The notes under the pieces were generated by a model. It saw only the letters and a program-made list of their open reading frames with translations, did no database searches and was not told the DNA's origin. Position numbers and translations under genes: made by a program. From positions 1-24,933 of the IMG/VR virus record IMGVR_UViG_3300021085_000202: a stretch of 24,933 nt of DNA. The stretch is one strand, 5' to 3'. This DNA comes from a virus. Positions 4,581 to 24,933 of this stretch are shown one piece after another. Positions within the stretch are counted from its first letter, which is position 1; each line of letters opens with the position of its first letter.

Positions 4581-7500
4581 TTAGTTAACGATGTTACCGT
4601 TAATGTCATAAATGTCGATACGGAAGTGTGAACTCTGTTGACCGTCTAACTTTTCAGAGTTGTCTACTGTAAGACTAACTGCATCGCCAGGTTGTAAAGC
4701 GCTATCCGCCTTAGCACCTTGAGCAGCAGTTGCGACATCGGCAGTATTTGCCTTAGTTGCAAGACTATTAGTTATAGTAGATGCAAAGTTCGCGTCGTCA
4801 CCAAGAGCAGCAGCTAGTTCGTTCAACGTATCCAATGCCGCAGGGGCAGCGTCTACAGTTGCCGCAACAACACCATCAACATACCCTTTGTTAGCAGCTT
4901 GTCCAACGTCTGTCGGAGTATCAACTCTAACATCCGAACCACTTAGTATGACAATACCGTCTTGGAAGTCGAATGTTCCGCCAGGGCCAGTAATGGATAT
5001 TGAACCACCAGATGCAACCTGAAGTTGATCTGTTGCCAAACGACCACTTAGTAGCTCAGTCCACTCATAGTCTGTACCGTTCCACTTGACGAATTCGCCA
5101 GTGTTAGCAGTAGACTTGTTTAAGTGTGCATCGACCTCTGCCTTAGTAGCAGTACCGAAACCACTACCAATGATTGTTGACGAACCGAAGTTTACTATAG
5201 AACCTTCGAAATCGACAGTTCCTGTTTGAACTTTTAGGTCATTCGATTCAATTGTGTCAATGAATCCACGGTTAGCGTAAACATCATTAACATCCTTGAT
5301 GTTGTTCTGACCCATCTCAATGCCTACTGACAATGCGATATTGGAGTCAGAGTCTACACTGATACCAGCAGTACGTCCGTCCGTTGCAGCAACAACATTA
5401 TCAACATAAACCTTAGATGCGATTGTAGATGCATCAACACTAGGAGTGTTTATGGCAACAGTTGGTCCATCTGATTTCCATACACCTTTATGTTCAGCAA
5501 CTAATATTTCATGGTTGTCTGAAACGTCAATATAAGTGTATGATTTATTACCAGAAGACACTCCCTGTTCTAAATCCCAACTATTAGTTGCAACGGTTTT
5601 ATCTGAGGACGCCATATCAAAGATATAGGCCTTTTTGTTGTTGTAGTCACCCACATTAGAGCCAGGAATAATTACCGCGTCTCCATTTGTCGCAGTCACT
5701 GTCTGAGTAGGGCTTGCACCCCATCTCATGACGCTACTCGGTCTAGGTATAGTCGCAACTAAATTGTCAGTTCCAACTTCATAAACCAAAGCTGGATTGT
5801 CCCCATAAGAATCGGGATAATCATGACCAGCATTAGAATTACTATCAACAATTACAATATACTTACTACCCACGGAAACTGTTTTACTACTAACATCACC
5901 TTGAGTGCCTGGGTTCGGGCCTTTTAACCAGTGTCCAAATGTTGAATAAGGAATTACGTGTGTCGCACCAGTGTCGAAATTGTAACCTCGGATATTAGGA
6001 TCTGATTGCATTCTTCCTGCTACATAAACCCAACCAGATGCAGAATGAACATCACAACTGATGTACTGTGGATTAACAACTGGCAACCAAGGTAGACTAA
6101 TCTCTTCTTGAGTTACCCAATTAGTCGCACCAAATTCACCACGCGAACCATAATTAGATTGATTGGTAACAATTAGTTTATCGTTACCGACAGATCTTAT
6201 AAATGCATACACACCATTCTGATTACCCCCTGCGGTAATCGTATTATAATCAACAGTGAATAACTTGGAATGACTTCTATGACCACCTATCGCAGTATCG
6301 AGATCGTCTATAGAGTATACTTTATATCCAGCTCCATTTGAAGAGTAACTATATGCTATGAATACGTGAGTATCCGTGATCTCAGCACTTACAAGTTTCT
6401 CTCCTATTGATAAGGCACCGTACAAATCGTTATTAGATTGTCGTACTATGCTGCCCATATCATATTCACGAATCTCTACACCACTCGCATTATATACTCT
6501 AACAGTGTAAGAGATGTCTGTATTTGATGGGATACCTGAACCAACCCAATTGTTAAAGACCGCAACCACATTTCCATTAGGACTAGTTCTAACATCGACA
6601 GCATCTCTAATGTCATCTATGTCGTCTCTCTTGTAAAAACTTTGCGTTTGTTTCCCAGAATCTGGTTGATAATCAGTAGCTGACCAGTCAACAGTATATG
6701 TTGTTGTTGATCCATCAGCAAGTGACCAGAAGTCTTCTGGTTGTACCGCAGTGTCTGCCTTAGCACCCTGTGCAGTAGTTGCCTTACCATCAAGAGCAGT
6801 AGTAGTTGCAGCATCATCTGCCTTAGAGGCAAGACTAGTGGTAACTGTTGATGCAAAGTTTGCATCGTCACCTAATGCAGCAGCCAACTCGTTAAGAGTG
6901 TCCAATGCGGCAGGAGCAGCATCTACGGTTGCAGCAACAACTTGATCAGCATATGCTTTAGCGTCTACTTCTGCTTGATCTGCTTTACTAGTTGCATCAG
7001 CACTTGCAGTAGAGATAGCAGATGTTATTGCAGTTTCCCTAGCAGATGTTTCGGCAGCAATTGCAATTTCCCTAGCAGATGTCTCCACAGAAACTAATGA
7101 TTCTAGATCCGACTGTAATGAGAAACCACCGGCAAGACTAGATACATCCCATCTATTAATACCTTTTGGAGAAGATGATCCACTACCATCATATTCGGTA
7201 ATATACAATGTCTCGTCATCCGCAGTGATACCACCGAAGTACCCATAAAACGACTGTGCTGTCGATATAGTCACTGGAGTGGCATTAAGGTCACTCAGAT
7301 CATAAACTTTCAAAACTCCTTCGTCTGTTCCCAAGGCACCATATTGATCTGATTTTATCGATCCGATATATAAATGACTAGAAGTCGCATGAAGTGCATT
7401 CGAAGGATTTCCACCCAAGTCAATTGCAGTCCTAACATTAGAACCAAATTCGTAAACGTTAGCAATTGTATTAGGTGACCAACTAATAAATTTACCACCT

Positions 7501-10500
7501 CCGATTACTCCATAGTATGAATTCCCACTATTAGTAATAGTAGATTGGAGAGTCAATGTCGCCACATCATACTCATACCAAGTCGAGGTCGCTTGTTCGA
7601 ATACGTACATCCGACCTTCACCAGCTACCACGCGTTTCCCCCAAGATACACCAGTCGGACTTACAAAGACAGTGGGTGATGCAGATAAAGAATTTTCATC
7701 CCAAAGTAGAAGTTGTGACCCTGAAACGTTAGTCTTACTTGTTGCAATAAACTTTCCGTCAGTATTTGCTCTTACTTTCAACTTATCGTCCGTAGATCCC
7801 AGATATTGATGTTTCATGGATATGTTATTTCTATCAGTGACATCGAAGAACTGTATACCGCCTGTATTTGAACTACTGACCGAAGTCGACCATGAACACG
7901 CTAGAGTCTTAGTATTCTCTGACCATACCATATTTTCGCCGAAGCTAGGTCCATATTGAGTGTTGATAAGAGAACTTTCATTTTGCATCTCAATGACTGA
8001 TGGAACAGATTCTGTGTTATTTTTATCATACACAAAAACTTGTCCATGTTGATCAGACCCATAGTTATCTGCAGCAACGATCACATAGTCGTTAGTGATA
8101 ATCATATTAGATCCGAAACGATCACTATGTGATGAACCTGAACTAATAGGAGATATCTTAGTCAATGGAACCGCTTCCGGAGTTACGTCAGAAACATTGC
8201 CATTCAAGAAATCTTCGATAGCAGTAACAGTAGTAACGTCTGCCTTAGTTGCAAGAGCAGTAGTAGTTGCAGCACCATCTGCCTTAGTAGCAAGAGCAGC
8301 AGTAGTTGCAGCATCATCTGCCTTAGAGGCAAGACTGGTGGTAACTGTTGATGCGAAGTTCGCATCATCACCAAGAGCAGCTGCTAGTTCATTCAACGTA
8401 TCCAATGCGGCAGGAGCAGCATCTACAACATTAGCGACTTCAGCAGTAATTGCAGTATTCATCTCAGCGGTTGTTGAGTAGTCACTCAAGTCGGTAGAAG
8501 GAATTGCAGCAATAGCGGCAGTTCTAGCAGCAGTCTCAGCAGCGATAGCAGAAGCGTTAGCGGATATACTATCAGTAAGACTAGTATCAGTTCCAGACAA
8601 TGCAGATATTTCCGAACGTAACTCATTGATAGCGGGAGTTATCTCAGTAGCCACAGTCTCTAATGCCGCAGCAGGAGAGGTCATAGTATAACCAATCGAA
8701 GCTGACATTCCGAACCTAGATTCGTTGATAGTAGAGAAAGGTTGATTGAGAACTTTTTGGGGTGTAGACAAGTCATTAACATCATAGATGTGTAACTGAC
8801 CATTGACATTGCCATCATTAAACTCATGATACCCTAATAAAATTATATTCCCTTTAGCACTGACCGACTTTGCATGAACATTAAACCCATCACTAGAAGA
8901 ACCATATCGCGCAACATAAGTTGGTTGAGATGAAATACTTGATAGGGGCCAAACATACATTCCATTATTATCTGAACCACTTAGACCAGCACCAATAGAA
9001 ATAATGTGACTATCAGTCATTTCTATATATTGAATCCAGTTATCATTTGTTTCAATATTAGGTTTCTGTATAGTGCCAATCAGTTGGTTATTGGAAGAAT
9101 TGAATATGTGTATGACTTCTGGTGTACCACTTGCACCAGAATAAGCAACTGCGGCCCAATGGGTCGAATTTGCCGCAACAGACGAACCAAAACTATTTCC
9201 ATGAGTGTTTGATTGTGTAGCTATTTCAGTGGGTGATGCATTTAAGTCATCAATATTATAGATGTATACTCTACCCTGATTTTGTGTAGAACCATCATAA
9301 CTAACAAAACCTACATAAAGTTTTCTACCAACAGAAACTATAGAACTATTGTTTTCCCCAAACCACTGATTTCCTCCTAAAGCATTAAAATTTCTACTAG
9401 GAGATAATTTTGTAGGACTAGAAAAATTCAGATTTTGATTATCGTTCGAATAATTAACAGTATATGCGTATATAGCACCTTCAACCTTATCACCACTTGC
9501 TGCATTACTGTCTTCGTTCTTTGCAGCTACGAACAATCTATCTCCGGATTCTGACCAAACTACAGTTTTACCAAAGTTTTCATTCAGAGAAGAGTTTGGT
9601 GAAGAGGGAAGTAGATTTTGCAATAATGAGCCATCTGGGTTAAATATACTAACACGACCACCACCAGTATAATTATGATCTCCTATCGCAACAAAACCAT
9701 ACTGGTTAATTGTTGTACTATAAGGTTTATCATTACTTCCCTGCGCCATCCATTCTCTAGGGTCAGCACTTTCTATTGTCAATACTGGAGATGAAGTGTC
9801 TGCTGCATTGTATAGATAAGTTTGTCCAGCTCTTTGAGTTCCATCAGAATGTTCCGCATAAGGAGCACTGATTAATATGCTAGTTCCAACGACATCTTGA
9901 CCTTTAATAAGAGATTCTAAGGTATCAAGATCTGTCTGATCTGACTTAGTAGCAAGAGCAGCAGTAGTTGCAGCATCATCTGCCTTAGTTGCGATAGACG
10001 AAGTTACTGTTGAAGCAAAGTTCGCATCGTCACCTAATGCAGCAGCCAACTCGTTAAGAGTGTCTAATGCGGCAGGAGCAGCGTCTACTGTAGAAGCAAC
10101 AACTTGATCAGCATATGTCTGTGCTTCTGTTTTAGCAGTAGCAATTGCAGAAGTCATCTCGGTAGAAGTTGAGTAAGGAGTCAAATCTGTAGAAGGAATT
10201 GCAGAAATAGCAGTATTCATTTCCGAAGTAGTTGAGTAACCAGAAAGATCAACACCAGCAACACCCGAATCAACATATGCTTTAGTAGCAAACAATGAAT
10301 CGTCTACAACAAAACTTGTAGTTGTAGTACCAGTTTGTGCGACACTAGAGAAGAATCTCTTTTGACTATAGGTTATTAGGGTATCACCTACGATTATAAC
10401 TTCTACATTTCCATTCTCAAAACAAGCAAATGTACCCGATTGTTGTCCATCGGATATGTTATATGCCTTTATTGTTTTACTCTGGACACTATTATCAGCA

Positions 10501-13500
10501 CCTATAAATATTCTACCTCCTCTTACCGCAAGATAACTACTCATATGTGGTTTTGCAGCATCATACTGAGTGGTGTTAATAGTTGCTATGTGAGAGTAAT
10601 CTTCAGTACTAAACACTTCAACTATTGCACCTTGACTATCATTATAATTATCACCAGCTGGAGCTGCATGATATCTAGTTACCGCCAAGTGATTCAGAGT
10701 TCTATCGATAGCCATTTGACCACCAAACTTTCTTTGAGAGACACCAGGCGCAGTAATAGTCTGTACTACAGTATTAGTTGATAGATCAACAACATAGACA
10801 GCTCCATCGGGTACCATGCTATTAGAAGCAGCACCATAGAAAAAATCACTGATAAATGCTTTATTTCCTTGTACCAATATTTTTCGAAGTTTATGACCTT
10901 CGTTTGAATTAGCATTAGTTGCGGATCCAGGCAACGCAATAGTCGCATCCAGATTACCAGTAGCGATATCATAAATGTACATCTGATTTATGTAAGCGGT
11001 TAAGAACTTAGTTCCATAAATCGCATGAGCAACATTATAGTTACCAGAAGTAACGGGGAAACTATTGACTAAAGAACCATCACTTAAGTTATGAATATAA
11101 GCTGTGTCCGTTGAAGCTTTAATCCAAGCGGCATAAGTTTCATCCATAACCATAGTTGGATCGTCATCACCGACATTAACATCCCAAACTTTATTTAAGT
11201 CTTTATCAAGAACCTGTATAGTTTTTGTCTGAATGCCTGAGACTTTACCTTGAGCATAAATGGAAAAATGCGTAGAATCATTAGTTCTCATTCTAGTTGC
11301 ATCTGCACCATACTGACTACCGATCATATTATCGGTTATAGTAAGTCCTAGTGTACCAGCACTGAATGTTCCATTAGCACTCCAGTCAGAACTAGTTACT
11401 GTATTAGTACCGAATCCAGTTGTTAAATCAACAGGTTGGATAGCAGTATCAGCAAGAGCACCTTGAGCAGAAGTTGCAACGGCACTAGCGTCTGCCTTAG
11501 TAGCAAGAGCAGCAGTAGTTGCGGCATCATCTGCCTTAGTTGCAAGACTAGTGGTAACAGTAGATGCGAAGTTTGCGTCATCACCTAGAGCAGCAGCTAA
11601 CTCGTTAAGGGTATCCAATGCCGCAGGAGCAGCATCTACAACATTAGCAACTTCAGCAGTAATTGCTGAGTTCATTTCCGAAGTAGTTGAGTAACCAGAA
11701 AGATCTACAGTAACGTTATCGATCGCAGTATTCATTTCCGCTGTAGTTGAGTAACCAGAAAGATCAACGTCAGCACTAGAAACAGCAGAATCAACGTATG
11801 CTTTAGTTGCCGCATCTGTACCACTCGTTGGCGTTCCAAGATTAGAAATCTTGTTTGTGGCCATGTCAACATTTGCTTGCATCTCAATATCAGTTGAACC
11901 TGAAGAGGTACTAATACCAGAGACCTGATTTTGAAGTATAGCAATTGCTTGGTTGTTAATAGTTTCCGCAGAAGTCGCACGAGTTGTTTCGGCAGTTAAG
12001 TCAACTTGACTTGCCTTATCAGCAAGACTAGTAGTAACAGTTGAAGCAAAGTTTGCATCATCACCAAGAGCAGCTGCTAGTTCATTCAACGTATCCAATG
12101 CGGCAGGAGCAGCATCTACAACATTAGCGACTTCAGCAGTAATTGCAGAGTTCATTTCTGTAGTAGTTGAGTAACCAGATAGATCAACACTAACATTAGA
12201 GATTGCAGTATTCATTTCTGTGGTAGTTGAGTATCCAGAAAGATCAACGTCAGCGTTAGCAATAGCAGTATTCATTTCCGCAGTAGTTGAGTATCCAGAA
12301 AGATCAACACCAGAAACACCAGAGTCAGTATACGCTTGTGCTTGCGATAAAGTTGCGGCTAATTCAGCAGTAGTTGCATATGGAGATAAATCCGTACCTT
12401 CTAATAATAGTTTACCACTAGTAAGTGCAAGACCAGCAATGTAATCACTTTCAGTTGTAGTAACACTACCATCGTCTTGTACATAGTACGTTGACCCGAC
12501 TGAAAGACCAGTCAAGACGGTAGTAGAACTATTCTTAATAGCGACTTGTACATTTTCACCATCTGCTTGAGTACTTGTTGCGATACCGATCCACTGAGCA
12601 GTATTACTTACAGGCGTCATTCTAGAGACGTGTGCTTTGACCTCGTTGCCATAGACACGACTTCCAGAATTATTTCTTAAAAATACACTATGACCATTTA
12701 ATTCTGGGCCGTCAAAAACAACAAAAGAGGTAGAGCTACCATTGGAAGTGTCAGAATAAGTGTGAGCCCCTCCGCGCCATTCTTCGGTTACTGTCCAAGA
12801 GCCCGAAGAATCAATACTGCCGAGAACATAACCCCATCCATTATCACTGTTGTATTGTCGTCCGTACATAAATGTAACGGTGTCACTTAATGAAGATGTT
12901 GCTACGGCTATAGAATTATAACTCTGGTTTCCGGTATCATTAATCAATTTTGAAATGAAAGACTTTTCAACTAAATCTCCACTAGAGTCAAATTCGAGCA
13001 CCATTGCTCTTATGTAAGTATTTGAACTCCAAGATTTCATCGGCACAACAATATTGCCCGAGTATGCCGAATATGAAATCCAACCACCAGTTATTCCACC
13101 ATTATCACCTATGCTCGTGTCGATGTGATAATTACCAGAAGTTCTACTAGTGTAGTCATATTGTTTAGCGTCTCCAAAACTCAATTGTTCATTAGATACG
13201 TCTACTTTTATAGCAGTAATTTGTTTGCCGTTATGCAGCATAAACATCCAGTCTTGACCGTCTATTGTTAAGACTGTAGTTCTTTCTGGCAGACTATAAT
13301 AGCTTTGATTTGTTCCAAGGCCAAGGAAATAATTTTCAAAATCAGACTGATTGCTTGCAGCTGAATATAAGGTGTATTCAGTACCGATTATTAATTCACC
13401 ATTATAAACTGAAATTTTTGTTCCCATTACGTTACTATTGTTTTCATCACCCGGGCCAACTCCATTCTGTCTATAGAATAGATGTAGTTCACCATCAACT

Positions 13501-14504
13501 ACAGCATGCTGTAGTTGGTTTGTATAAGACCTGTTAAAAGTAGTGAAGCCTACTTTAGATATAGAAGAACCATTATTATAAAAAAGTACAATTCTTTCTC
13601 GTTCAGCATTAACAAGAACATAGTATGCTGTGCCTGGTATTACAGCCATAATAGCTTTTTTACTAACAGCTTCTCCCAGCATATAGGCCCAATTATTAGA
13701 TCCAGTCGCAGCATCAGAATTAAAAGAGTAATGTACAGTAGTTTCTAGTGACATTGGATCAGGGGTTACAGCAGAAATTTTTATCTTTTCTTGTCCATAG
13801 TTACTACTCTTTTCACTGGCCATTACAATTAATTGATTATTCACAGTATCCCAATCCATGAACATGGCTCTTTTATCAATATTCGTACCTAAACTAGTAT
13901 AGGTTTCATTCATGTCGGGTATATTAGATGATATCTGTGTAACCTTTCCAGTAGATGTTAAAGCAACCGCGCTTCCACTAGTAACAGTACCAAACGCTTC
14001 ATAGGTTTGAGTACCAATTGTATTTTCTAAAGCGGTTAAGTCTGCTTGTGTAGCAGCATTGTCAGCTTTAGTACCCTGTGCGGCAGTCGCAAAAGATGTG
14101 ATCGCAGCTGTCGCGGCAGTTCCTAGACCAAGATTTGATCTAGCAGCAGCGGCATCGGCAACGTCACTTAAGTTGTTTGCAGCGTTTAATTTTGTGTTTA
14201 GTGCGTTCGTCATTGACGTTGCGAAATCCGCATCATCTCCGAGTGCCGCAGCTAATTCGTTTAATGTGTCTAAGGTCGCTGGTGCGGAGTCTGCAAGAGC
14301 AGAGACAGCAGTAGTGACAGCACTATCAATTGAACCTTGGTCAACACCCTGTGCGACAGTAGCGTCAATCATGGCTTGAACGGCAGTTTGATACGATGCT
14401 TCGTTTAGTACGCCATCAGCACCAACAATGTTGATACCATTAACGAAAACTTCACCAGCAACGTCTAAACCGTTCTGTATTCTAAATTTCTTTTCTGAAC
14501 TCAT
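4581..14504 (-). CDS. Giant modular tail fiber/adhesin with five predicted beta-propeller blocks
   Basis: A 3307-aa virion fiber-type protein, probably for host attachment. The N-terminus KKFRIQNGLDV and C-terminus KLDGQQSSHFR...YDINGNIVN are typical ends of marine T4-like structural fibers. Seven copies of a spacer centred on LDTLNELAAALGDDANFAS lie near residues 80, 805, 965, 1480, 2035, 2535 and 3220, with STTAEMNTAI repeats and ATKAYVDS linkers, as in trimeric fibers. Between them are five long beta blocks, at about 171-618, 1015-1391, 1531-1951, 2091-2461 and 2588-3028. The third and fourth carry repeated FG-GAP-like units (FGKTVVWSESGDRLFVAA; DRFGSNMIITNDYVIVAA; GQVFVYD). The second is YVTN/WD-like (VYVVDLSTNTVVQTI). 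The first ends in a short domain (GLSVGSTYYVQDDGS) common in fibers. The AGGAAA site 6 nt before the ATG fits. By position it replaces T4 genes 9-wac. The propeller fold is inferred from sequence pattern only. Confidence 0.85.
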   Translation of the reverse strand: MSSEKKFRIQNGLDVAGEVFVNGINIVGADGVLNEASYQTAVQAMIDATVAQGVDQGSIDSAVTTAVSALADSAPATLDTLNELAAALGDDADFATSMTNALNTKLNAANNLSDVADAAAARSNLGLGTAATAAITSFATAAQGTKADNAATQADLTALENTIGTQTYEAFGTVTSGSAVALTSTGKVTQISSNIPDMNETYTSLGTNIDKRAMFMDWDTVNNQLIVMASEKSSNYGQEKIKISAVTPDPMSLETTVHYSFNSDAATGSNNWAYMLGEAVSKKAIMAVIPGTAYYVLVNAERERIVLFYNNGSSISKVGFTTFNRSYTNQLQHAVVDGELHLFYRQNGVGPGDENNSNVMGTKISVYNGELIIGTEYTLYSAASNQSDFENYFLGLGTNQSYYSLPERTTVLTIDGQDWMFMLHNGKQITAIKVDVSNEQLSFGDAKQYDYTSRTSGNYHIDTSIGDNGGITGGWISYSAYSGNIVVPMKSWSSNTYIRAMVLEFDSSGDLVEKSFISKLINDTGNQSYNSIAVATSSLSDTVTFMYGRQYNSDNGWGYVLGSIDSSGSWTVTEEWRGGAHTYSDTSNGSSTSFVVFDGPELNGHSVFLRNNSGSRVYGNEVKAHVSRMTPVSNTAQWIGIATSTQADGENVQVAIKNSSTTVLTGLSVGSTYYVQDDGSVTTTESDYIAGLALTSGKLLLEGTDLSPYATTAELAATLSQAQAYTDSGVSGVDLSGYSTTAEMNTAIANADVDLSGYSTTTEMNTAISNVSVDLSGYSTTTEMNSAITAEVANVVDAAPAALDTLNELAAALGDDANFASTVTTSLADKASQVDLTAETTRATSAETINNQAIAILQNQVSGISTSSGSTDIEMQANVDMATNKISNLGTPTSGTDAATKAYVDSAVSSADVDLSGYSTTAEMNTAIDNVTVDLSGYSTTSEMNSAITAEVANVVDAAPAALDTLNELAAALGDDANFASTVTTSLATKADDAATTAALATKADASAVATSAQGALADTAIQPVDLTTGFGTNTVTSSDWSANGTFSAGTLGLTITDNMIGSQYGADATRMRTNDSTHFSIYAQGKVSGIQTKTIQVLDKDLNKVWDVNVGDDDPTMVMDETYAAWIKASTDTAYIHNLSDGSLVNSFPVTSGNYNVAHAIYGTKFLTAYINQMYIYDIATGNLDATIALPGSATNANSNEGHKLRKILVQGNKAFISDFFYGAASNSMVPDGAVYVVDLSTNTVVQTITAPGVSQRKFGGQMAIDRTLNHLAVTRYHAAPAGDNYNDSQGAIVEVFSTEDYSHIATINTTQYDAAKPHMSSYLAVRGGRIFIGADNSVQSKTIKAYNISDGQQSGTFACFENGNVEVIIVGDTLITYSQKRFFSSVAQTGTTTTSFVVDDSLFATKAYVDSGVAGVDLSGYSTTSEMNTAISAIPSTDLTPYSTSTEMTSAIATAKTEAQTYADQVVASTVDAAPAALDTLNELAAALGDDANFASTVTSSIATKADDAATTAALATKSDQTDLDTLESLIKGQDVVGTSILISAPYAEHSDGTQRAGQTYLYNAADTSSPVLTIESADPREWMAQGSNDKPYSTTINQYGFVAIGDHNYTGGGRVSIFNPDGSLLQNLLPSSPNSSLNENFGKTVVWSESGDRLFVAAKNEDSNAASGDKVEGAIYAYTVNYSNDNQNLNFSSPTKLSPSRNFNALGGNQWFGENNSSIVSVGRKLYVGFVSYDGSTQNQGRVYIYNIDDLNASPTEIATQSNTHGNSFGSSVAANSTHWAAVAYSGASGTPEVIHIFNSSNNQLIGTIQKPNIETNDNWIQYIEMTDSHIISIGAGLSGSDNNGMYVWPLSSISSQPTYVARYGSSSDGFNVHAKSVSAKGNIILLGYHEFNDGNVNGQLHIYDVNDLSTPQKVLNQPFSTINESRFGMSASIGYTMTSPAAALETVATEITPAINELRSEISALSGTDTSLTDSISANASAIAAETAARTAAIAAIPSTDLSDYSTTAEMNTAITAEVANVVDAAPAALDTLNELAAALGDDANFASTVTTSLASKADDAATTAALATKADGAATTTALATKADVTTVTAIEDFLNGNVSDVTPEAVPLTKISPISSGSSHSDRFGSNMIITNDYVIVAADNYGSDQHGQVFVYDKNNTESVPSVIEMQNESSLINTQYGPSFGENMVWSENTKTLACSWSTSVSSSNTGGIQFFDVTDRNNISMKHQYLGSTDDKLKVRANTDGKFIATSKTNVSGSQLLLWDENSLSASPTVFVSPTGVSWGKRVVAGEGRMYVFEQATSTWYEYDVATLTLQSTITNSGNSYYGVIGGGKFISWSPNTIANVYEFGSNVRTAIDLGGNPSNALHATSSHLYIGSIKSDQYGALGTDEGVLKVYDLSDLNATPVTISTAQSFYGYFGGITADDETLYITEYDGSGSSSPKGINRWDVSSLAGGFSLQSDLESLVSVETSAREIAIAAETSARETAITSAISTASADATSKADQAEVDAKAYADQVVAATVDAAPAALDTLNELAAALGDDANFASTVTTSLASKADDAATTTALDGKATTAQGAKADTAVQPEDFWSLADGSTTTYTVDWSATDYQPDSGKQTQSFYKRDDIDDIRDAVDVRTSPNGNVVAVFNNWVGSGIPSNTDISYTVRVYNASGVEIREYDMGSIVRQSNNDLYGALSIGEKLVSAEITDTHVFIAYSYSSNGAGYKVYSIDDLDTAIGGHRSHSKLFTVDYNTITAGGNQNGVYAFIRSVGNDKLIVTNQSNYGSRGEFGATNWVTQEEISLPWLPVVNPQYISCDVHSASGWVYVAGRMQSDPNIRGYNFDTGATHVIPYSTFGHWLKGPNPGTQGDVSSKTVSVGSKYIVIVDSNSNAGHDYPDSYGDNPALVYEVGTDNLVATIPRPSSVMRWGASPTQTVTATNGDAVIIPGSNVGDYNNKKAYIFDMASSDKTVATNSWDLEQGVSSGNKSYTYIDVSDNHEILVAEHKGVWKSDGPTVAINTPSVDASTIASKVYVDNVVAATDGRTAGISVDSDSNIALSVGIEMGQNNIKDVNDVYANRGFIDTIESNDLKVQTGTVDFEGSIVNFGSSTIIGSGFGTATKAEVDAHLNKSTANTGEFVKWNGTDYEWTELLSGRLATDQLQVASGGSISITGPGGTFDFQDGIVILSGSDVRVDTPTDVGQAANKGYVDGVVAATVDAAPAALDTLNELAAALGDDANFASTITNSLATKANTADVATAAQGAKADSALQPGDAVSLTVDNSEKLDGQQSSHFRIDIYDINGNIVN
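8362..8455. repeat. 94-bp exact direct repeat, copy A
   Basis: This stretch is base-for-base identical to 12055-12148, about 3.7 kb away in the same gene. It encodes the LDTLNELAAALGDDA spacer and the following N-V-V/AEVAN segment. Other spacer copies encode almost the same peptide with many synonymous differences, so the identity is not forced by the protein sequence. Confidence 0.95.
12055..12148. repeat. 94-bp exact direct repeat, copy B
   Basis: Partner of 8362-8455. The two copies bracket the second and third propeller blocks of the giant fiber. Recombination between them would remove about 3.7 kb in frame (3693 bp, a multiple of three), deleting both propellers. Confidence 0.95.
12151..12305. 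repeat. 60-bp tandem repeats (20-aa DLSGYSTTxEMNTAI units)
   Basis: Units starting at 12151, 12211 and 12271 repeat with a period of exactly 60 bp and encode a 20-residue motif, DLSGYSTT-x-EMNTAI plus a variable 4-5 residues. Two further units start at 11671 and 11731, exactly 480 bp away, so the spacer plus tandem block has been duplicated as a whole. Confidence 0.85.
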
Positions 14505-14591: not shown

Positions 14592-17500
14592 TTATGCATC
14601 GATGTACGTAGCAACGACTGTTACCTTAGTACTCTCAGCATTAGCAGTGTAAGTCAATTCAATGTCGCCAGTACCCGAATTAACACGTACATCTGTATCA
14701 CCCAAAGTAGTGGAACCTGTGAAGATTACACCATACTCAGTGATGAAGGCAGAAGTACCGTTATGGACTACTAGACATTCACGTGTTTCGAACTCTTGTC
14801 CGTCTGGAGACTCAATAGATACCAAGTACTTAGCGGATCTGTGATTCGCTTTAGGGAATGAAGAAACCACAGCTTCGACAGTACCGACAGTTCGTTGTGC
14901 ACCCTGTTCACCGACTTTAATGTCTGCGGTGAATGATGAAGTAGAAACTGAACCATCAAGAACACCTTGTACAGCACCGACAGAGTGAGAGATGATAACT
15001 GCCTGAGCACCATTAGGAATCGGAGCAGTAAATACAATCTCTTGTGCAACCGAATCAAAGTTATAGTGTGTGCCTGGATCCTGAATAACACCACCAACGA
15101 ATACTAGAGCGTCTGCAATATTTACATAGAATGTAATTGCGAAGTTAGTCTGTACTCCATCACCATTCATAACTTGACGATTAGGTTGTACGAATTGAAG
15201 ATCATTCGGGTGGATAAAGTCCCAACCGGATTCATCAGACTTAACTTGCATTAAGTACTCAGCTTTACCGACATAAGTAGTTTCTGATATATCATCCAAC
15301 TCAAGTAGAGTACCAGCAGTATCAATAGCGATAACACCAGTAGTATTATCGTAAGAAACTCTTCCGTTACCTTTAGTATCAACCGCACTAATAGATTCTC
15401 TTGAACGAGCTTCAGTAAAGTATCTGTTAGATGCATTCGGATCTTCTACAAGATCACTCGTGTCAAACTGCGAGATGTGTTGTGCAGCAAGACCAGCGTC
15501 CATTTGACCCTTGTTAACAGCGTCAGAAGCGACAGTACCATCAGCTACAGCAGCAACCTTGTTTGAACCCATGTTCAATACACCAGACATAGTGTCGCCA
15601 GACTTGGCAACCTTTTGATCGATGTTTGACTGAAGAGTCGTGTCCGCAGAAGATCGTGCGGATGCTTCAGCAGATACAGCAGCTGCTCTATCAGTGATCT
15701 CTTGTGCAAGACCAGAAGCGTTAGTTGCGATGTCAGTTTGGTTAGAAGAGATAAGTGAAGTTAGATCACTATCTGCGTCACCAAATGCGGTAACAATCTC
15801 TGTCAATGAATCCAAAGCAGCGGGATCAGTGTTAGAAACGATGAAGTCTACTCGTGCGTTTACAGCTGCTTCAGCAGTCTGTGCACGTGTCGCTTCGTCA
15901 GAGATAGAAGTAGCGTTAGTTGCAATATTTGCAGCATTTGCTTGTTCAGCTGAAGTAGCACGACCAACTTCCGCAGTAATCTGTGATTGCAGACTTGCGT
16001 CACCTGAAGTTCTAGAAGAGATTTCTGAGTTCAAGTTATTAGTTAGTGTATTATCCGCAGCGATACGTGCAGTTTCTTCTGCCTTAAGTGCAACGTCTAA
16101 CTTGGTAGACTCGTCCTTAAGTGATACCGCAGTATCTAAGAAGTTAGAACCTGAACGTGATAGGTAAGCACCATCAGTAGCAACACCGACAGAAGTTTGA
16201 GTTAGAGTCATTTCTGATTCTAAAGTAGTTGCTCTAGTGTCTAATGCGTTATCAGCATTCGCTCTTGTTGTAGCTTCAGCGGTGATTTGACCTTCAAGTA
16301 GATCGTCAGCAGCTTCTCTTGTTGAAGCTTCAGTAGCAACGATTCCGTCAGAATAAGTCTTAGCGGCCGCTTCAGCATTATCTGCTTTAGTCGTCGCATC
16401 TGAAGATGCAGAGTTTAATACAACGGCATCGGCAGTTGCGAAATCACTACGGATTGAAGTATCAGCAGCAGCAAAATCGCCACGAATCGAAGTTTCTTCA
16501 GCTTGTGCACGGGCAGTCTCCGTAGAAATGGCAGTTGCGTTAGTTACAATAGAAGATTCGGCAGTAGTCATTCGACCAGCTACCGCATTTGTATCTGTAT
16601 GCAATTCGTTTACCGCACCAGCGAGATCATTCGCAACTGTGTCAAGTGAAGTACCTTCACCAACAAATGCTTCTAGATCATCGATTTCACTTTCAGCAGC
16701 ATCCATCTCTGTCTCTAGAGTAGTAGCGCGTGCTTCGACAGCATCCATTTCAGATTCTAGTGTAGTAGCGCGTGCTTCTACAGCATCCATTTCTGTGTTC
16801 AGAGTTGAGATAGAAGATTCGTTTGTGGTCAATCGTGAAGAGTTATTATCGATAACAACTTGCATATCACTGTCAGCATTCTCATATGCGCCAATGATTT
16901 CAACTAATGTATCTAATGTTTCCGGAGCAGCATTTACTAAGAAGTCTACTCGACCTTCGACGATGTCTAAATCTGTTTGAATTGCAGCATCAGCGGCAAT
17001 ACGTGCAGAAGTCTCATCAGCGACGGCAGTAGTAAGAACACCTTCAGCTGCGATAGCACGAGCAACTTCAGAGTTGATGCTTGCAGCATTAGTTGCAATG
17101 CTACCAGTGTTTGTATCAACGTCAGTTCTTAGACCAGCTTCTACACCAGTTGCACGTGTAACTTCCTGTGCAAGTGAAGCATCAGTGGCAGAGTCAGCTG
17201 CGATTCTTGCAGTTTGTTCTGCGAGAAGATCAGCGTCATGTTGAGTATCAGCAGCCGCACGAGTGACAGCTTCTGCATCAATGTTACCTTGGAGAGTAGC
17301 ATCAGCAGAAACACGAGCAGTAGTCTCGGTAGCGATGTCTGAAGTATTTGCATCGATATCTGTCTCAGCAGTATCCATACGACCTTCTAGGTTAGTAGCG
17401 CGTAGAGATAGTGCGTCATCACCAGAAACTCGTAATGCAGTTTCAGCAGCAACAATAGTGTCTGCATGAGTTTCCGCAGTAGTTTTTGCAGTTGCAATAC

Positions 17501-19208
17501 GTGCGGTAACAGTATTTCCGCCAGTTCCGTCTACAGAAGCATCACCAATAAATAGTGCATCTTTAGTTTCTGCGTGAGACTTAGCGGAAACTTCTGCCTC
17601 ATCTGCTTTAGTAGTTGCGTCGACGGCAGCAGCCGCTTGAACCGCAGTATCACCAGCAGCACGATCAACAAGTTCTTGCGCAAGACCAGAAGTCAAAGTT
17701 GCATCAGCAGTTGCACGAGTTGACGCTTCGGTGTCAATGTTTGACTGAAGAGTCGTATCAGCAGAAGTTCTAGCAGAAGCTTCATTTGAAATAGCAGTGG
17801 TGTTTGATGAAATCAAAGCGCCCATATCGGTATCTGCTTGTTGGAAAGCAGCAACGATTTCTGTTAATGAGTCAAGAGCAGCTGAGTCAGTATTAGAGAT
17901 AACATTATCTAGTTTAGATTCGATTCTAGACTCCTCAGAAGTAGCACGAGAAACTTCGGATGTTAAGTCTGATTGTAGAGTAGAGATCTCACCATCATTA
18001 GAAGTGATCTGAGTTTGTAGTCCGGATTCAGCAGTTTCAGCACGAGTCTTCTCAACCAATACCTTAGCAGCAGCGTCAGCAGCTGCGACAGATTCAGCAC
18101 CTGATTTGGCAGTTGCAATACGTGCAGTAATAGTATTTCCACCAGTTCCATCTACACTGTTATCTCCAATAAGAAGATCGTCATGTGATTGAGCAGATAC
18201 TAGAGTTGCATTATCACCAGCAACGATGTCTGCACCTAGGTCAGAACGTACCGCATTATCAGCGATAGCACGTGCAGAAATTTCTGCCGCAAGACCTTGA
18301 GCGTTAGCTTCTTCAGCAGCGGTTGCACGAGTAACCTCAGCAGAAACTGAATTCTGTAGAGCAGTTACTTCACCATTTGTAGTTGAGATTTCGGCAGCTA
18401 GATCAGTTTCCAGTTGCGTTATATCACCCTCAGCAGTAGTCATACGTGCATCTAGAGCATTATCAGCAGAAACACGAGCCGCAGATTCGTTAGTTATGTT
18501 TGTTTGTAGAGTTGTGTCCGCACCTTGTCTTGCAGTAGTTTCTGAAGCGAGGTTGGCTTCGATTGTGGACTCTTTAGTAGTCGCACGTGAAACTTCATTC
18601 GAGATAGCAGTTGCGTTAGTAATGATTGAAGCAGATAATGCATCATCAGCATCTTGGAATGCAGTAACAATTTCCGCAAGAGAGTTAAGTGCTTCCGAGT
18701 CAACATTAGACAATACATTATCAATACGAGTATTGATTGCTGTGTCCGCAGACTGGAATGCAGATTCCATTGCGTTTTCTCTATTGGTAGCACGAGTAAC
18801 TTCAGTGTCCAAAGAGGTTTGTAGTGCAGTATCAGCAGCAGTTCTTGCCGCAGTTTCAGCTGCAAGATCAGAAGTTAAAGTTGTATCCGCAGCAGCACGT
18901 ATTGTCGCTTCAGCGGCAACGGCATCAGCAATATCCTGAGCGACAGCGGCTTTAGCACGAACGTCTGTGAAGTAAAGGTTAGAATTTGATTCAGTACCTT
19001 CTGATATGTCATCGGTAGTATAAGAACCGATAAGACCAGATGAAGATACTTTCTTAAGTGCTTGTGTGTCGTTATCAAAAACGAGGAATGTGTCAAGACC
19101 GTCAACTCCTGAGAGAGAGGCCTGTTGATCAATTGCGGAGGTATCTAGTTTGGTATTTAATACCGCTTGATTTGCTAGAGCTCCGGATTTAATTTGCCTA
19201 AATGCCAT
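14592..19208 (-). CDS. Long coiled-coil virion fiber/whisker-like protein
   Basis: A 1538-aa structural protein. The N-terminus (MAFRQIKSGALANQAVLNTK, then YTTDDISEGTESNSNLYFTD near residues 62-81) matches marine phage fiber proteins. Residues about 95-1200 are dominated by alanine-rich coiled-coil repeats of the type AETAARTAADTALQ, interrupted by four globular-looking modules with the pattern ALDSLTEIVTAFQDAD near 170, 443, 763 and 1129. A three-fold 14-residue repeat (EMDAVEARATTLES) lies near 806-846. A GDTMSGVLNMGSNKV segment follows at about 1200. The C-terminus has the adaptor-like domain at about 1344-1408 (NGDGVQTNF...VFVGGVIQDPG) shared with two neighbours, and a last domain (about 1454-1538, SAKYLVSIESPDG, CLVVHNG) also ending the 780-aa protein. 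By position and coiled-coil architecture it could act like T4 fibritin (wac), but it is much longer. An AGGAG site precedes the ATG. Confidence 0.85.
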   Translation of the reverse strand: MAFRQIKSGALANQAVLNTKLDTSAIDQQASLSGVDGLDTFLVFDNDTQALKKVSSSGLIGSYTTDDISEGTESNSNLYFTDVRAKAAVAQDIADAVAAEATIRAAADTTLTSDLAAETAARTAADTALQTSLDTEVTRATNRENAMESAFQSADTAINTRIDNVLSNVDSEALNSLAEIVTAFQDADDALSASIITNATAISNEVSRATTKESTIEANLASETTARQGADTTLQTNITNESAARVSADNALDARMTTAEGDITQLETDLAAEISTTNGEVTALQNSVSAEVTRATAAEEANAQGLAAEISARAIADNAVRSDLGADIVAGDNATLVSAQSHDDLLIGDNSVDGTGGNTITARIATAKSGAESVAAADAAAKVLVEKTRAETAESGLQTQITSNDGEISTLQSDLTSEVSRATSEESRIESKLDNVISNTDSAALDSLTEIVAAFQQADTDMGALISSNTTAISNEASARTSADTTLQSNIDTEASTRATADATLTSGLAQELVDRAAGDTAVQAAAAVDATTKADEAEVSAKSHAETKDALFIGDASVDGTGGNTVTARIATAKTTAETHADTIVAAETALRVSGDDALSLRATNLEGRMDTAETDIDANTSDIATETTARVSADATLQGNIDAEAVTRAAADTQHDADLLAEQTARIAADSATDASLAQEVTRATGVEAGLRTDVDTNTGSIATNAASINSEVARAIAAEGVLTTAVADETSARIAADAAIQTDLDIVEGRVDFLVNAAPETLDTLVEIIGAYENADSDMQVVIDNNSSRLTTNESSISTLNTEMDAVEARATTLESEMDAVEARATTLETEMDAAESEIDDLEAFVGEGTSLDTVANDLAGAVNELHTDTNAVAGRMTTAESSIVTNATAISTETARAQAEETSIRGDFAAADTSIRSDFATADAVVLNSASSDATTKADNAEAAAKTYSDGIVATEASTREAADDLLEGQITAEATTRANADNALDTRATTLESEMTLTQTSVGVATDGAYLSRSGSNFLDTAVSLKDESTKLDVALKAEETARIAADNTLTNNLNSEISSRTSGDASLQSQITAEVGRATSAEQANAANIATNATSISDEATRAQTAEAAVNARVDFIVSNTDPAALDSLTEIVTAFGDADSDLTSLISSNQTDIATNASGLAQEITDRAAAVSAEASARSSADTTLQSNIDQKVAKSGDTMSGVLNMGSNKVAAVADGTVASDAVNKGQMDAGLAAQHISQFDTSDLVEDPNASNRYFTEARSRESISAVDTKGNGRVSYDNTTGVIAIDTAGTLLELDDISETTYVGKAEYLMQVKSDESGWDFIHPNDLQFVQPNRQVMNGDGVQTNFAITFYVNIADALVFVGGVIQDPGTHYNFDSVAQEIVFTAPIPNGAQAVIISHSVGAVQGVLDGSVSTSSFTADIKVGEQGAQRTVGTVEAVVSSFPKANHRSAKYLVSIESPDGQEFETRECLVVHNGTSAFITEYGVIFTGSTTLGDTDVRVNSGTGDIELTYTANAESTKVTVVATYIDA
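16699..16824. repeat. 42-bp tandem repeat in the coiled-coil gene
   Basis: Units starting at 16699, 16741 and 16783 (gcatccat) recur every 42 bp and encode the 14-residue unit EMDAVEARATTLES. Two heptads per unit fit a continuous coiled coil, and unit-number changes would alter fiber length in frame. The outer edges are approximate. Confidence 0.8.
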
Positions 19209-22279: not shown

Positions 22280-22636
22280 TTACCTCGTTACTGACGGATT
22301 GACTTTTATCTTACCTTCGAGTATTCTTTCTATCATAGTCGCACCATCTTCGTCCACATATGACAATTCGACATCATACACGTAACGACCACGACTAGAT
22401 AGACTATCGGTTTGGATGTTTGATAAGGATATGACTACGATACCATCCGTAGGAGGATCAGCGATAACCGAAGTGAAATCTAAGGTCTCTGAAACATCGC
22501 TATTGTAGTTTCTTTTTAGTTTTGCGTTTACAGAATGTCCTGTTAAGTTTTTAACTGAACCATCAGTATCAACAAGCTCCAATTCTAGTGCAATGTCTGC
22601 ACCTTGGTCTATTGCAAAATCTTCATATGTCGCCAT
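22280..22636 (-). CDS. Ig-like virion protein related to phage upper-baseplate N-terminal domains
   Basis: A 118-aa all-beta protein. The order DFAIDQGADIALELELVDTD, GSVKNLTGHSVNAKLKRNY, DGIVVISLSNIQTDSL, GRYVYDVEL, ERILEGKIKVNPSV is the pattern of the small Ig-fold domain found in phage baseplate/fiber proteins (BppU N-terminal type), here as a single-domain protein. It is the first gene after the late promoter at 22676-22685; the leader is about 34 nt, with GGGAAAA as a weak ribosome-binding site. Its stop codon region (ACGAGGTAA) supplies the ribosome-binding site of the next gene. Likely a structural joint at the tail tip; the precise site is unknown. Confidence 0.75.
   Translation of the reverse strand: MATYEDFAIDQGADIALELELVDTDGSVKNLTGHSVNAKLKRNYNSDVSETLDFTSVIADPPTDGIVVISLSNIQTDSLSSRGRYVYDVELSYVDEDGATMIERILEGKIKVNPSVTR
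22283..22286 (-). promoter_or_regulatory. Ribosome-binding site that decides the 91-aa start
   Basis: GAGG on the minus strand overlaps the last codons of the 118-aa gene, 9 nt before the ATG at 22273 and 6 nt before an alternative TTG. It indicates coupled translation of the two genes. Confidence 0.5.
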
Positions 22637-22717: not shown

Positions 22718-23425
22718 TTATTCTTCCGATGAGATGTCGGCAATAACCATTTCGCGGAATTCTTCTGAAGCCTGTTCCGTATTAAATGTATACGAAACGG
22801 TTGTTCTCCAGTTATCAGTATCCGCAGCGTGATACAATAATTTATCATCTTCACTATAATGTCCAAAGTAAGCAGCTTTACAGGTCCATTGACCAGCTTC
22901 ATCTTCACACACCACCTCTTCTTTAGTAACAGGATGTATGTATTTGAAACAACCTTCACCGAACTCTGACCAAGTAAAGATAAGGTTAAATGCAGCTGCA
23001 TTAGCATTATTGTGCCAAGAGATAAACCCGCCTGGAGGATAAATCGCACAAAGTGCATTGTTTCTTACTGACAAAAAATTCATCATTTTATCGTTAAGAT
23101 CTGCTAAGTTTTTAGTAAGATCTCTTTTAAACACGGGGTCAGCATCCTTAGTAAATATCTGATGATTTCTTTCACCTAATTTTAGATTATAACCAACCAA
23201 TTGTTCAGGAAATCCTTCATGTCGAGTTCCCTGTGAAATTATTTCGTGTCTATGGTTGTCCCCAACCCAGTAAGGACGTTGTCTAGCATGTTCTGATGCT
23301 GATAAATGTACTTTATCCTCAAAACCTTCTAGAGTATGTAGTTTGGTGTATCCGTCAAGAATCTCCAACAACTCTGGGTTATTGATTGGCACATGTTTTA
23401 AATATTCGTCGTTAATCTGTGTCAT
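22718..23425 (-). CDS. 2-oxoglutarate/Fe(II)-dependent oxygenase-like protein
   Basis: A 235-aa protein with the double-stranded beta-helix pattern of 2OG-Fe(II) oxygenases, which hydroxylate or otherwise oxidise proteins, lipids or small molecules. The proximal site is ISWHNNANAAAFNLIFTW (H138-N139-N140), the distal histidine is LLYHAAD (H199), and R207 in NWRTTVSYTF, eight residues on, fits the 2OG carboxylate anchor. The usual acidic ligand two residues after the first His (HxD/E) is Asn here. Related WHxN variants are common, as I recall, in marine T4-like phage oxygenases. The start overlaps the glycosyltransferase stop by 4 nt (ATGA), so the two are translationally coupled. Substrate is unknown; modification of a virion or host-surface component together with the glycosyltransferase is possible. 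Confidence 0.82.
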   Translation of the reverse strand: MTQINDEYLKHVPINNPELLEILDGYTKLHTLEGFEDKVHLSASEHARQRPYWVGDNHRHEIISQGTRHEGFPEQLVGYNLKLGERNHQIFTKDADPVFKRDLTKNLADLNDKMMNFLSVRNNALCAIYPPGGFISWHNNANAAAFNLIFTWSEFGEGCFKYIHPVTKEEVVCEDEAGQWTCKAAYFGHYSEDDKLLYHAADTDNWRTTVSYTFNTEQASEEFREMVIADISSEE

Positions 23426-24147
23426 ACGATTGGTTTATCCTTGTTAAGTCCAGCAGAAAAGTGTCTGATAATAACTTCACCTTTCGGTCTAGTTCTCGCC
23501 CAATTAAGAGCGTTGTAGTAATTCCACCTTAAATCGTCTTCAAATATTCCGATATTAAGGTCTTTGTATTTTTCTTCCTTTTCAGTAAGCCACCACAATG
23601 AGAATTGATCCCAAGATTTGAGACTATCCGCATAACCTTCTGGCCACCATTGATCGGCCATTTGTTTTTTAGTCAATTCCCACCAATCATCCATAAACTC
23701 TCGAATAATTGGTTTTCTCATGTCATATAAACAAACTGCACCACATAAAGTAAATTTCGCCTTTCCTTCTGGGGTATCAAAATCACGTTCTGCATAAATA
23801 TAATCCCGATCATCGGTAAGTTCTGACCAGACCATATCATAGTCTTTTAGTTCATCCCATACCTTCGCAATATCTTCGTGTTCCACTTCCATGTCAGCAT
23901 CAATATACATGGTAATATCATAAGGAGATTTTGCCATACCATATAATTTAGCTCTATAGTGGTCATCACAAAGGATTAAATCATCTGCAACTTCTTCTCG
24001 ACCATCCAGAAAGCGTTCTTCTGTAACCAAACAAATCTTTGCTTCTTCATAGACATCTCTAATAGATTCGCATAGATTTATTGCATACAAATAAAAGTTA
24101 CGGTTCCTTGAAGCAACAACAATAAAACCTTTAGTTGGTTCTGTCAT
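23422..24147 (-). CDS. GT-A type glycosyltransferase-like protein
   Basis: A 241-aa protein that probably transfers a sugar from a nucleotide-sugar donor. It begins with a beta-strand KGFIVVASRNRNFYLYAINL, then KICLVTEE (about residues 37-44), RAKLYGMAKSPYD (65-77) and the metal/nucleotide-binding DxD motif in MYIDADMEV (D83-A-D85). GAVCLYD (136-142), SWDQFSLWW (178-186) and IIRHFSAG (226-233, a His near the C-terminus) fit the GT8-like arrangement. There is no signal peptide or membrane segment, so it acts in the host cytoplasm. It overlaps the gene before it by one base (TAATG) and the oxygenase after it by four, forming a tight three-gene unit inside the structural region. Acceptor unknown; virion protein, host surface glycan or nucleotide base are all conceivable. 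Confidence 0.82.
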   Translation of the reverse strand: MTEPTKGFIVVASRNRNFYLYAINLCESIRDVYEEAKICLVTEERFLDGREEVADDLILCDDHYRAKLYGMAKSPYDITMYIDADMEVEHEDIAKVWDELKDYDMVWSELTDDRDYIYAERDFDTPEGKAKFTLCGAVCLYDMRKPIIREFMDDWWELTKKQMADQWWPEGYADSLKSWDQFSLWWLTEKEEKYKDLNIGIFEDDLRWNYYNALNWARTRPKGEVIIRHFSAGLNKDKPIV

Positions 24148-24596
24148 TATTCTGCCTCATTCAAAGATTCTTGTAGAATCATGATTGACCACATATCAAC
24201 TTCAATTCGAGACTTAGCTCTGCGAAGTTTTGCTTTTAATTTGCGATTGGTTGAATTTTTAATTTCTTCAACTTCAAAAGCTTCGAGTTTATAGTTAAAC
24301 AACTTTTCTAACTTACGTGCTTTTGCGTGTTCTTTATCACGTTGAACGTGTTCTTCTTTTTCAGCTTTCTTCCGTTCAACTCTATCTTCGGTTTCTTTGT
24401 CGATAACGTCTTCGCCTAATGCATCGACTACTTCATCAAAGTCTGGATTTGCATTACCTTCTTTGTCGGTCCTATTGAGTAACATGACCTGACGAGTCAT
24501 CCTACCAACATCATCTTCCATTTCTAGGATACAATTTAACTGAGACTTGTCATCATTTTCCCAGAAAGCATTATCCATCCAACGTTTAAAACTCAT
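24147..24596 (-). CDS. Small charged helical protein of unknown function
   Basis: A 149-aa protein with no recognised fold. It starts SFKRWMDNAFWENDDKSQLN and has a long charged helical stretch at about residues 66-98 (ETEDRVERKKAEKEEHVQRD), then LFNYKLEAFEVEEIKNS and a C-terminal basic/hydrophobic segment KLKAKLRRAKSRIEVDM (about 120-136). The C-terminal part resembles conserved uncharacterised proteins of marine T4-like phages as I remember them, so it is likely a real core-group gene. A strong AAGGAG site lies 8 nt before the ATG. It is the first gene after the hairpin at 24651-24671 and is coupled to the glycosyltransferase. Confidence 0.75.
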   Translation of the reverse strand: MSFKRWMDNAFWENDDKSQLNCILEMEDDVGRMTRQVMLLNRTDKEGNANPDFDEVVDALGEDVIDKETEDRVERKKAEKEEHVQRDKEHAKARKLEKLFNYKLEAFEVEEIKNSTNRKLKAKLRRAKSRIEVDMWSIMILQESLNEAE

Positions 24597-24684: not shown

Positions 24685-24933
24685 TTAAGCTACTCTTACA
24701 TATAGAGTGTAAGTTTCTACTGTAGAACTTGAACCCTGAATCGTAAGACCAGTATAGTTACCCACAAAGTTACGTGAGAAATCACCTATAAAGTTTCTTG
24801 AATAATTACTAACTAAATTTCTTGAGTAATTACCTGTGTAGTCCCCTGCGAAATCTCTACTAGATACCCTAGTGGATACTGAAGTATATGAAGAAGCTCT
24901 AACTCCAGTATAGGAAGAAATTCTGGTTCTGAT
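24685..24933 (-). CDS. C-terminal end of a tetrapeptide-repeat structural protein (5' part outside window)
   Basis: The frame is open from the window edge for 82 codons to a TAA at 24685-24687. It encodes an S/T/R-rich stretch (YTGVRASSYTSVSTRVSS) and then nine consecutive four-residue units, DFAG-DYTG-NYSR-NLVS-NYSR, then NFIG-DFSR-NFVG-NYTG (24748-24855), before a short C-terminal beta-like tail (VETYTLYVRVA). Each unit has N/D, an aromatic (Leu once), a variable residue and G/R/S. This type of repeat occurs in large virion proteins of marine T4-like phages. The number of repeats upstream is not visible. It probably belongs to a baseplate or fiber component. Confidence 0.72.
   Translation of the reverse strand: MRTRISSYTGVRASSYTSVSTRVSSRDFAGDYTGNYSRNLVSNYSRNFIGDFSRNFVGNYTGLTIQGSSSTVETYTLYVRVA
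24748..24855 (-). repeat. 12-bp-period tandem repeat encoding [ND][YF]xx units
   Basis: Nine 12-nt units in frame encode the four-residue aromatic repeat. Codons vary between units (TTC/TTT, TAC/TAT, GGT/GGG), so the conservation is at protein level. Confidence 0.85.

Follow-up and report, generated by a model that had tools for sequence, protein, structure and literature searches.

The giant repeat gene at the contig edge

The window, the whole stretch of DNA analysed here, is a virus fragment of 24,933 bases (IMG/VR record IMGVR_UViG_3300021085_000202, positions 1 to 24,933). A minus-strand ORF is open at the end of this contig, and its last 82 codons lie inside the window. The short repeat stretch that these codons contain is the tip of a giant phage protein with a long series of four-residue units, or tetrads. 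Downstream of the tetrad gene follow, in this order, the genes for W149, a glycosyltransferase-like protein, a dioxygenase-like protein and a fibre-assembly-like protein:

24685..24933, minus strand: giant tetrad-repeat gene, C-terminal 82 codons and stop; ORF truncated by the contig end, 67 related loci
24748..24855, minus strand: final nine tetrads of the repeat, eight aromatic and one NLVS (sequence reading)
24688..24747, minus strand: conserved C-terminal cap, LTIQGSSSTVETYTLYVRVA, kept in relatives; the L046 model is confident there
24147..24596, minus strand: W149, conserved small protein (42 of 44 loci); no solved relative, PHROG matches weak only
23422..24147, minus strand: glycosyltransferase-like protein (WGT241), 241 aa; D-x-D motif, weak Glycos_transf_2
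22718..23425, minus strand: dioxygenase-like protein (W2OG), 235 aa; assigned by motif only
22280..22636, minus strand: 118-aa protein resembling the L-shaped tail fibre assembly protein (phrog_3304, E 1.3e-15; phrog_1084, E 7.2e-20); 44 of 44 loci

Read on the minus strand, 24855 to 24748 translates as DFAG DYTG NYSR NLVS NYSR NFIG DFSR NFVG NYTG. The sequence-only reading had placed nine uninterrupted [ND]-[YF]-x-[GRS] units at 24748-24855. These coordinates are exact and eight of the nine units fit, but the fourth, NLVS, carries Leu and breaks the run, and aromatics here follow one another at spacing four for five units at most rather than nine. When Leu is permitted at position 2, more than two consecutive tetrads never arise in 20,000 shuffles of the 82 residues. 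The repeat had also been described as varying in its codons and being selected as protein. Synonymous variation is indeed present within the window repeat (Gly GGG/GGT, Tyr TAC/TAT, Arg AGA/CGT, Phe TTC/TTT, Asn AAT/AAC), and the repeat exists at the protein level. However, in the closest pair, the window and its relative L002, 8 of 81 codons differ, 2 of them synonymously and 6 non-synonymously, and that pair by itself is therefore no demonstration of purifying selection.

Elsewhere in the window, the ORF at 1-1524 is terminase-like. The minus strand holds a second giant ORF of 3,307 aa (4581-14504) with repeated segments such as AAPAALDTLNELAAALGDDANFAST, which is probably another tail protein, and a 1,538-aa Ala/Thr/Glu-rich ORF (14592-19208) that, read by eye, has coiled-coil-like repeats and appears tail-fibre-like.

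A family of giant proteins on a four-residue lattice

Our IMG/VR scan identified 67 loci that encode relatives, with 57 distinct ORFs, and the lattice across this family is far larger than could be seen in the window. The nearest relative, L002, is 93% identical over the window's 82 residues and is 1,791 aa long. The version of phage C48C1 (OQ984149.1, Kyanoviridae, host not stated) reaches 3,347 aa and is annotated as a hypothetical protein only; at residues ~2010-2160 (L070) a block that covers the end of an inserted domain and the tetrads after it is duplicated almost exactly. The family layout begins with a conserved N-terminal domain of ~265 residues, continues with the long repeat and closes with a conserved C-terminal cap that terminates in YTLYVR-like residues, the N-domain and cap being common to 28 aligned members. 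In some members the repeat is broken up by long non-repeat stretches, for which a Pfam scan of five such members returned one sub-threshold match and nothing more, and several contigs carry two giant tetrad genes in tandem.

Among the 57 distinct proteins, successive aromatic residues are spaced by four 5,059 times, the next most frequent spacing being eight (1,290 times). Constant-phase runs, as defined by a windowed criterion, cover 46.7% of 64,200 residues, and the longest extend over 1,458 residues in L059, an E/P-rich outlier, and 816 residues in L007. Residues 602-2059 of the L059 ORF carry a version of the repeat that is acidic, contains Pro and has a 12-residue unit such as PYTGEYTGVLEE. 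Of 38 single-residue insertions that interrupt the lattice, 25 fall at G-G-N-F junctions, and 24 of the 38 stem from the related loci L034 and L035. The consensus, [N/T/D]-[Y/F/R/S]-[T/A/V/S]-[G/R/S], recurs in strict phase for hundreds of units. Its positions are occupied, in percent, by N33/T20/D16 (position 1), Y45/F28/R14/S8 (position 2), T32/A16/V16/S13 (position 3) and G39/R34/S11 (position 4), and the overall composition is rich in T, G, Y, R, S and N. The tetrad is thus not purely aromatic, contrary to the pattern proposed from the window, because position 2 is Arg or Ser in some units. Neighbouring tetrads obey a strict grammar. After Gly at position 4, the next position 2 is Tyr 1,518 times and Phe 480 times, with Arg and Ser found once each; after Arg at position 4, the counts are 707 for Arg, 671 for Phe, 297 for Ser and 69 for Tyr. 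An Arg in position 2 has Ser after it 583 times and Thr 140 times. Among the other C48C1 ORFs of at least 150 aa, the top five of each stretch being compared, none joins a raised lag-4 ratio with many tetrads.

Pfam, PHROGs and the PDB contain almost nothing of this family. The sequence-only reading had named a solved fold with this period as a result that would speak against it; sequence searches of the repeat against Pfam repeat families and solved structures gave no match, and the repeat was not assigned to a known repeat family. Megablast of the whole window returned none, and the N-domain was found in one of 50,697 phage records only, that of C48C1. Among 84,980 species genomes no N-domain was confirmed, in a search with one query that detects close relatives only. 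A tblastn match in Enterococcus phage Riverwalk falls between annotated genes and runs in the direction opposite to theirs; it was taken as chance. By fold, the best Foldseek E-values for the N-domain were 0.72 (PDB) and 3.0 (viral), and VIA matches to a MACPF protein (Z 6.4) and a MABP domain (Z 5.7) were not counted as family. Weak VIA matches of residues 41-550 of the L046 model cover the N-domain and the C-terminal cap. No description of this repeat or of phage C48C1 was found in the literature, as judged from titles and the openings of abstracts. This is a real, strongly patterned family of giant phage proteins, which we would place with the repetitive beta-structured phage fibres.

A 24-residue supraperiod and possible folds of the repeat

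Above the tetrad, a second period was observed. Of 45 long runs, 20 have their best tetrad lag at six, 10 at three and 3 at two. In the 51 of 60 runs that were kept, residues six tetrads apart are identical at a rate of 0.338, compared to 0.263 and 0.254 in first-order and second-order Markov nulls, and 0 of 200 simulations reach 0.338 in either. Lag eleven is also elevated (0.302), and L007 has strong 44-residue repeats. A regular coil length, as is expected of a beta-solenoid, is present at the protein level in the form of this codon-independent 24-residue period.

Structure prediction gave a divided result. In the AlphaFold2 model of L046 (550 aa, 27 relatives) the N-domain and cap are confident, the last two 10-residue blocks having pLDDT values of 91-97, and residues 269-523 are all below 50. 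The weak VIA matches that span both of its ends hint that the N-domain and cap may co-fold, with the repeat as a giant loop between them. For the last 436 residues of L002 (17 relatives; pTM 0.38), pLDDT is below 50 in 260 of the 436 residues, and residues 11-180 average 53-70 per ten-residue block, with predicted strands that break at G-N junctions, at intervals of 12 or 24 residues. Foldseek with the L002 repeat model returned nothing at E <1. The first VIA match of this low-confidence model was curli CsgA (Z 11.5, rmsd 11.1 A over 225 residues, 8% identity), and the matches after it were other solenoids; Z over all these matches ranges from 4.9 to 11.5. Of the two geometries suggested from the window, an unusual beta-solenoid or an aromatic-stacked fibre, the beta-solenoid is our best reading of the 24-residue supraperiod and of one partly ordered AlphaFold2 stretch, but most of the repeat has a pLDDT below 50; disorder prediction, which the same reading had named as the result that would speak against it, is largely what single chains gave.

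The reading that we favour, although we would put it somewhat short of an even chance, is that the window holds the C-terminus of a giant fibre of T4-like phages that is probably part of the virion and forms a beta-solenoid-like rod with 24-residue coils. Each tetrad would make two two-residue beta-strand steps, which would place positions 2 and 4 on one side. Three tetrads would form a 12-residue strand that turns at the G-[ND] junction, and two such strands would make up one 24-residue coil. The coils would pile up so that Tyr/Phe, Arg and Asn/Asp form ladders along a long rod, and this rod could serve as a tail-region fibre or spike that presents adhesion domains, its assembly possibly being aided by the adjoining assembly-like gene. 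The solenoid is the leading hypothesis and not a result, as the AlphaFold2 models back it weakly. Arg and Ser at position 2 would be unusual in a buried core, and both the lack of a Foldseek match and the large rmsd of the best VIA match count against it. Curli repeats have two strands per coil on a scale of about 24 residues, as proposed here, which is the likeness that CsgA and other beta-solenoids bear to the partly ordered model; the rmsd, the low identity and the low confidence of the model set them apart. In pentapeptide-repeat proteins, with their A[ND]Lxx unit, N/D likewise precedes a large hydrophobic residue in each short unit, but here the unit is one residue shorter, the key position is aromatic, Arg or Ser, and Pfam gave no match. 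The low pLDDT of most of the repeat in single chains also weighs against the solenoid, which may be an artefact of a known kind: AlphaFold2 is reported to over-predict solenoids for repeats (PMC11795689).

Possible, although doubtful, is an intertwined triple-stranded beta-helix like the T4 gp5 spike, in which an octapeptide of two tetrads would form each face and 24 residues each chain turn. The poor folding of single chains by AlphaFold2 is in keeping with such an arrangement. A length of 24 residues also suits one turn in the octapeptide geometry of gp5. The C-terminal beta-helix of gp5 shares with the present repeat a short beta unit, Gly followed by Asn/Asp, an N/D ladder and a place in the phage tail, and octads of the form G-[ND]-Y-x-R-[ND]-F-x resemble its VxGxxxxx unit (PMC4576200). 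The simpler [ND][VL]TG tetrads of a fibre of Synechococcus phage S-RIM2 match gp5 chains in the PDB (E 0.004-0.04). However, the gp5 unit is eight residues without aromatics, and a gp5-like helix predicts lag two to be strongest, whereas lag two is best in few runs and lag six, that is 24 residues, dominates. Octad parity is also lost, Y-x-R units lying 2, 3 and 4 tetrads apart 567, 451 and 300 times, and the aromatic repeat matches no solved gp5 chain by sequence.

The S-RIM2 structural protein (YP_007675557.1; L072, 5990-11728), with its [ND][VL]TG runs and weak PDB matches to gp5 beta-helix chains, has in common with the present family a four-residue unit with N/D first and Gly last. Its segment is aliphatic, short and part of a different protein, the best blast overlap with the aromatic repeat having ~31% identity, and we rejected it as a relative, only the tetrad style being common to both.

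A flexible, disordered or condensate-like polymer of Tyr/Arg stickers, in which regular stickers and not a fixed fold would matter, appears improbable. Such a polymer would account for the low pLDDT of most repeat residues and for the composition of the repeat, but the phase is held without indels for hundreds of residues, and the grammar and 24-residue period are hard to explain without fixed contacts. Finally, a DNA-level artefact from recent tandem duplication or assembly error, without protein meaning, is highly improbable and was rejected for the family as a whole: longer repeats do occur in some members (the 44-residue lag of L007, the duplicated block of C48C1), but Tandem Repeats Finder detects no array in the window, codon identity among identical residues is flat (0.46-0.50) over lags 1-12, which argues against recent tandem duplication as the source of the period, and the lattice is common to 57 distinct proteins, 28 of which, when aligned, share the N-domain and cap. 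An ancient duplication retained by selection could be the source of the period.

The downstream genes and a putative modification cassette

Among 44 distinct loci with at least 3 kb downstream, W149 and the glycosyltransferase-like gene are each present in 42 and the dioxygenase-like and fibre-assembly-like genes in all 44; these loci are related and partly redundant, and the counts are not independent. The two misses, L066 and L067, start near a contig end and have the layout of L065, in which the first two genes lie upstream. Conversely, when the best 80 of 497 dioxygenase-like relatives were taken and 14 with short flanks dropped, all 66 remaining loci, again related and partly redundant, carried the tetrad gene, the glycosyltransferase-like gene and both small genes. 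In C48C1 the same cassette lies among baseplate and tail genes. The giant protein gene sits in the tail-fibre region of T4-like phages, beside a fibre-assembly-like gene, and its position, as judged from the C48C1 map and from the fibre-assembly-like neighbour (phrog_3304) at 44 of 44 loci, is that of the tail-fibre class. The giant protein is probably a phage fibre.

W149 and the glycosyltransferase-like and dioxygenase-like proteins were each found in 1 of the 50,697 phage records, always C48C1. In the glycosyltransferase-like protein D-x-D is invariant in 27 sequences, and 10 of the 27 members match Glycos_transf_2 with E-values no higher than 0.1, the best being 0.0019. The score of the window member is under the curated cut-off, and a PDB search gave no match. 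The metal- and cosubstrate-binding residues of 2OG-Fe(II) dioxygenases form an H-x-D...H...R pattern. The dioxygenase-like protein has an invariant W-H-N-N and H...R in 26 sequences, so that H-N-N, H and R are kept and N stands where D is expected, and comparison with the 2OG-Fe(II) family gave no Pfam or PDB match and an hhalign probability of at most 1.8%. Two further candidates were set aside: the Asp/Asn hydroxylase family PF05118, with sub-threshold matches in 2 of 8 records and none above the cut-off, and the genuine PF13640 proteins present elsewhere in some records, which gave no convincing alignment with the dioxygenase-like neighbour.

Judged from gene order, the cassette may modify the fibre enzymatically, and the glycosyltransferase-like and dioxygenase-like proteins might act on the repeats. 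Pelagimyophages have a cluster for host recognition that includes tail fibres and glycosyltransferases, and an aspartyl/asparaginyl beta-hydroxylase is listed as core (PMC7029224). On these grounds it is tempting to guess that Asn/Asp in the repeat are modified; neither PF05118, Pfam, the PDB nor hhalign confirmed the enzyme family that this guess calls for. It is unlikely in its entirety, though worth stating, that the family represents a new repeat class, namely a tetrapeptide beta-rod with an aromatic/Arg ladder code in a giant phage fibre that is post-translationally hydroxylated and glycosylated by a dedicated phage cassette, in some ways a phage counterpart to collagen or mussel-adhesive maturation. 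If the linked enzymes do modify the fibre, the phage would itself encode a pathway that matures a structural fibre. Phage fibres set host range, and those of uncultured phages are without names in family libraries. The present family would add a very short and very strict protein repeat unit, whose neighbour rules could be read as packing rules and are directly testable, and the full-length proteins in C48C1 and IMG/VR put the question of the fold within direct test. As a separate observation, the tRNA genes of C48C1 (L071, L168) cover Thr, Asn, Leu, Asp, Tyr, Ser and Ala, and six of them serve residues that are abundant in its giant fibre.
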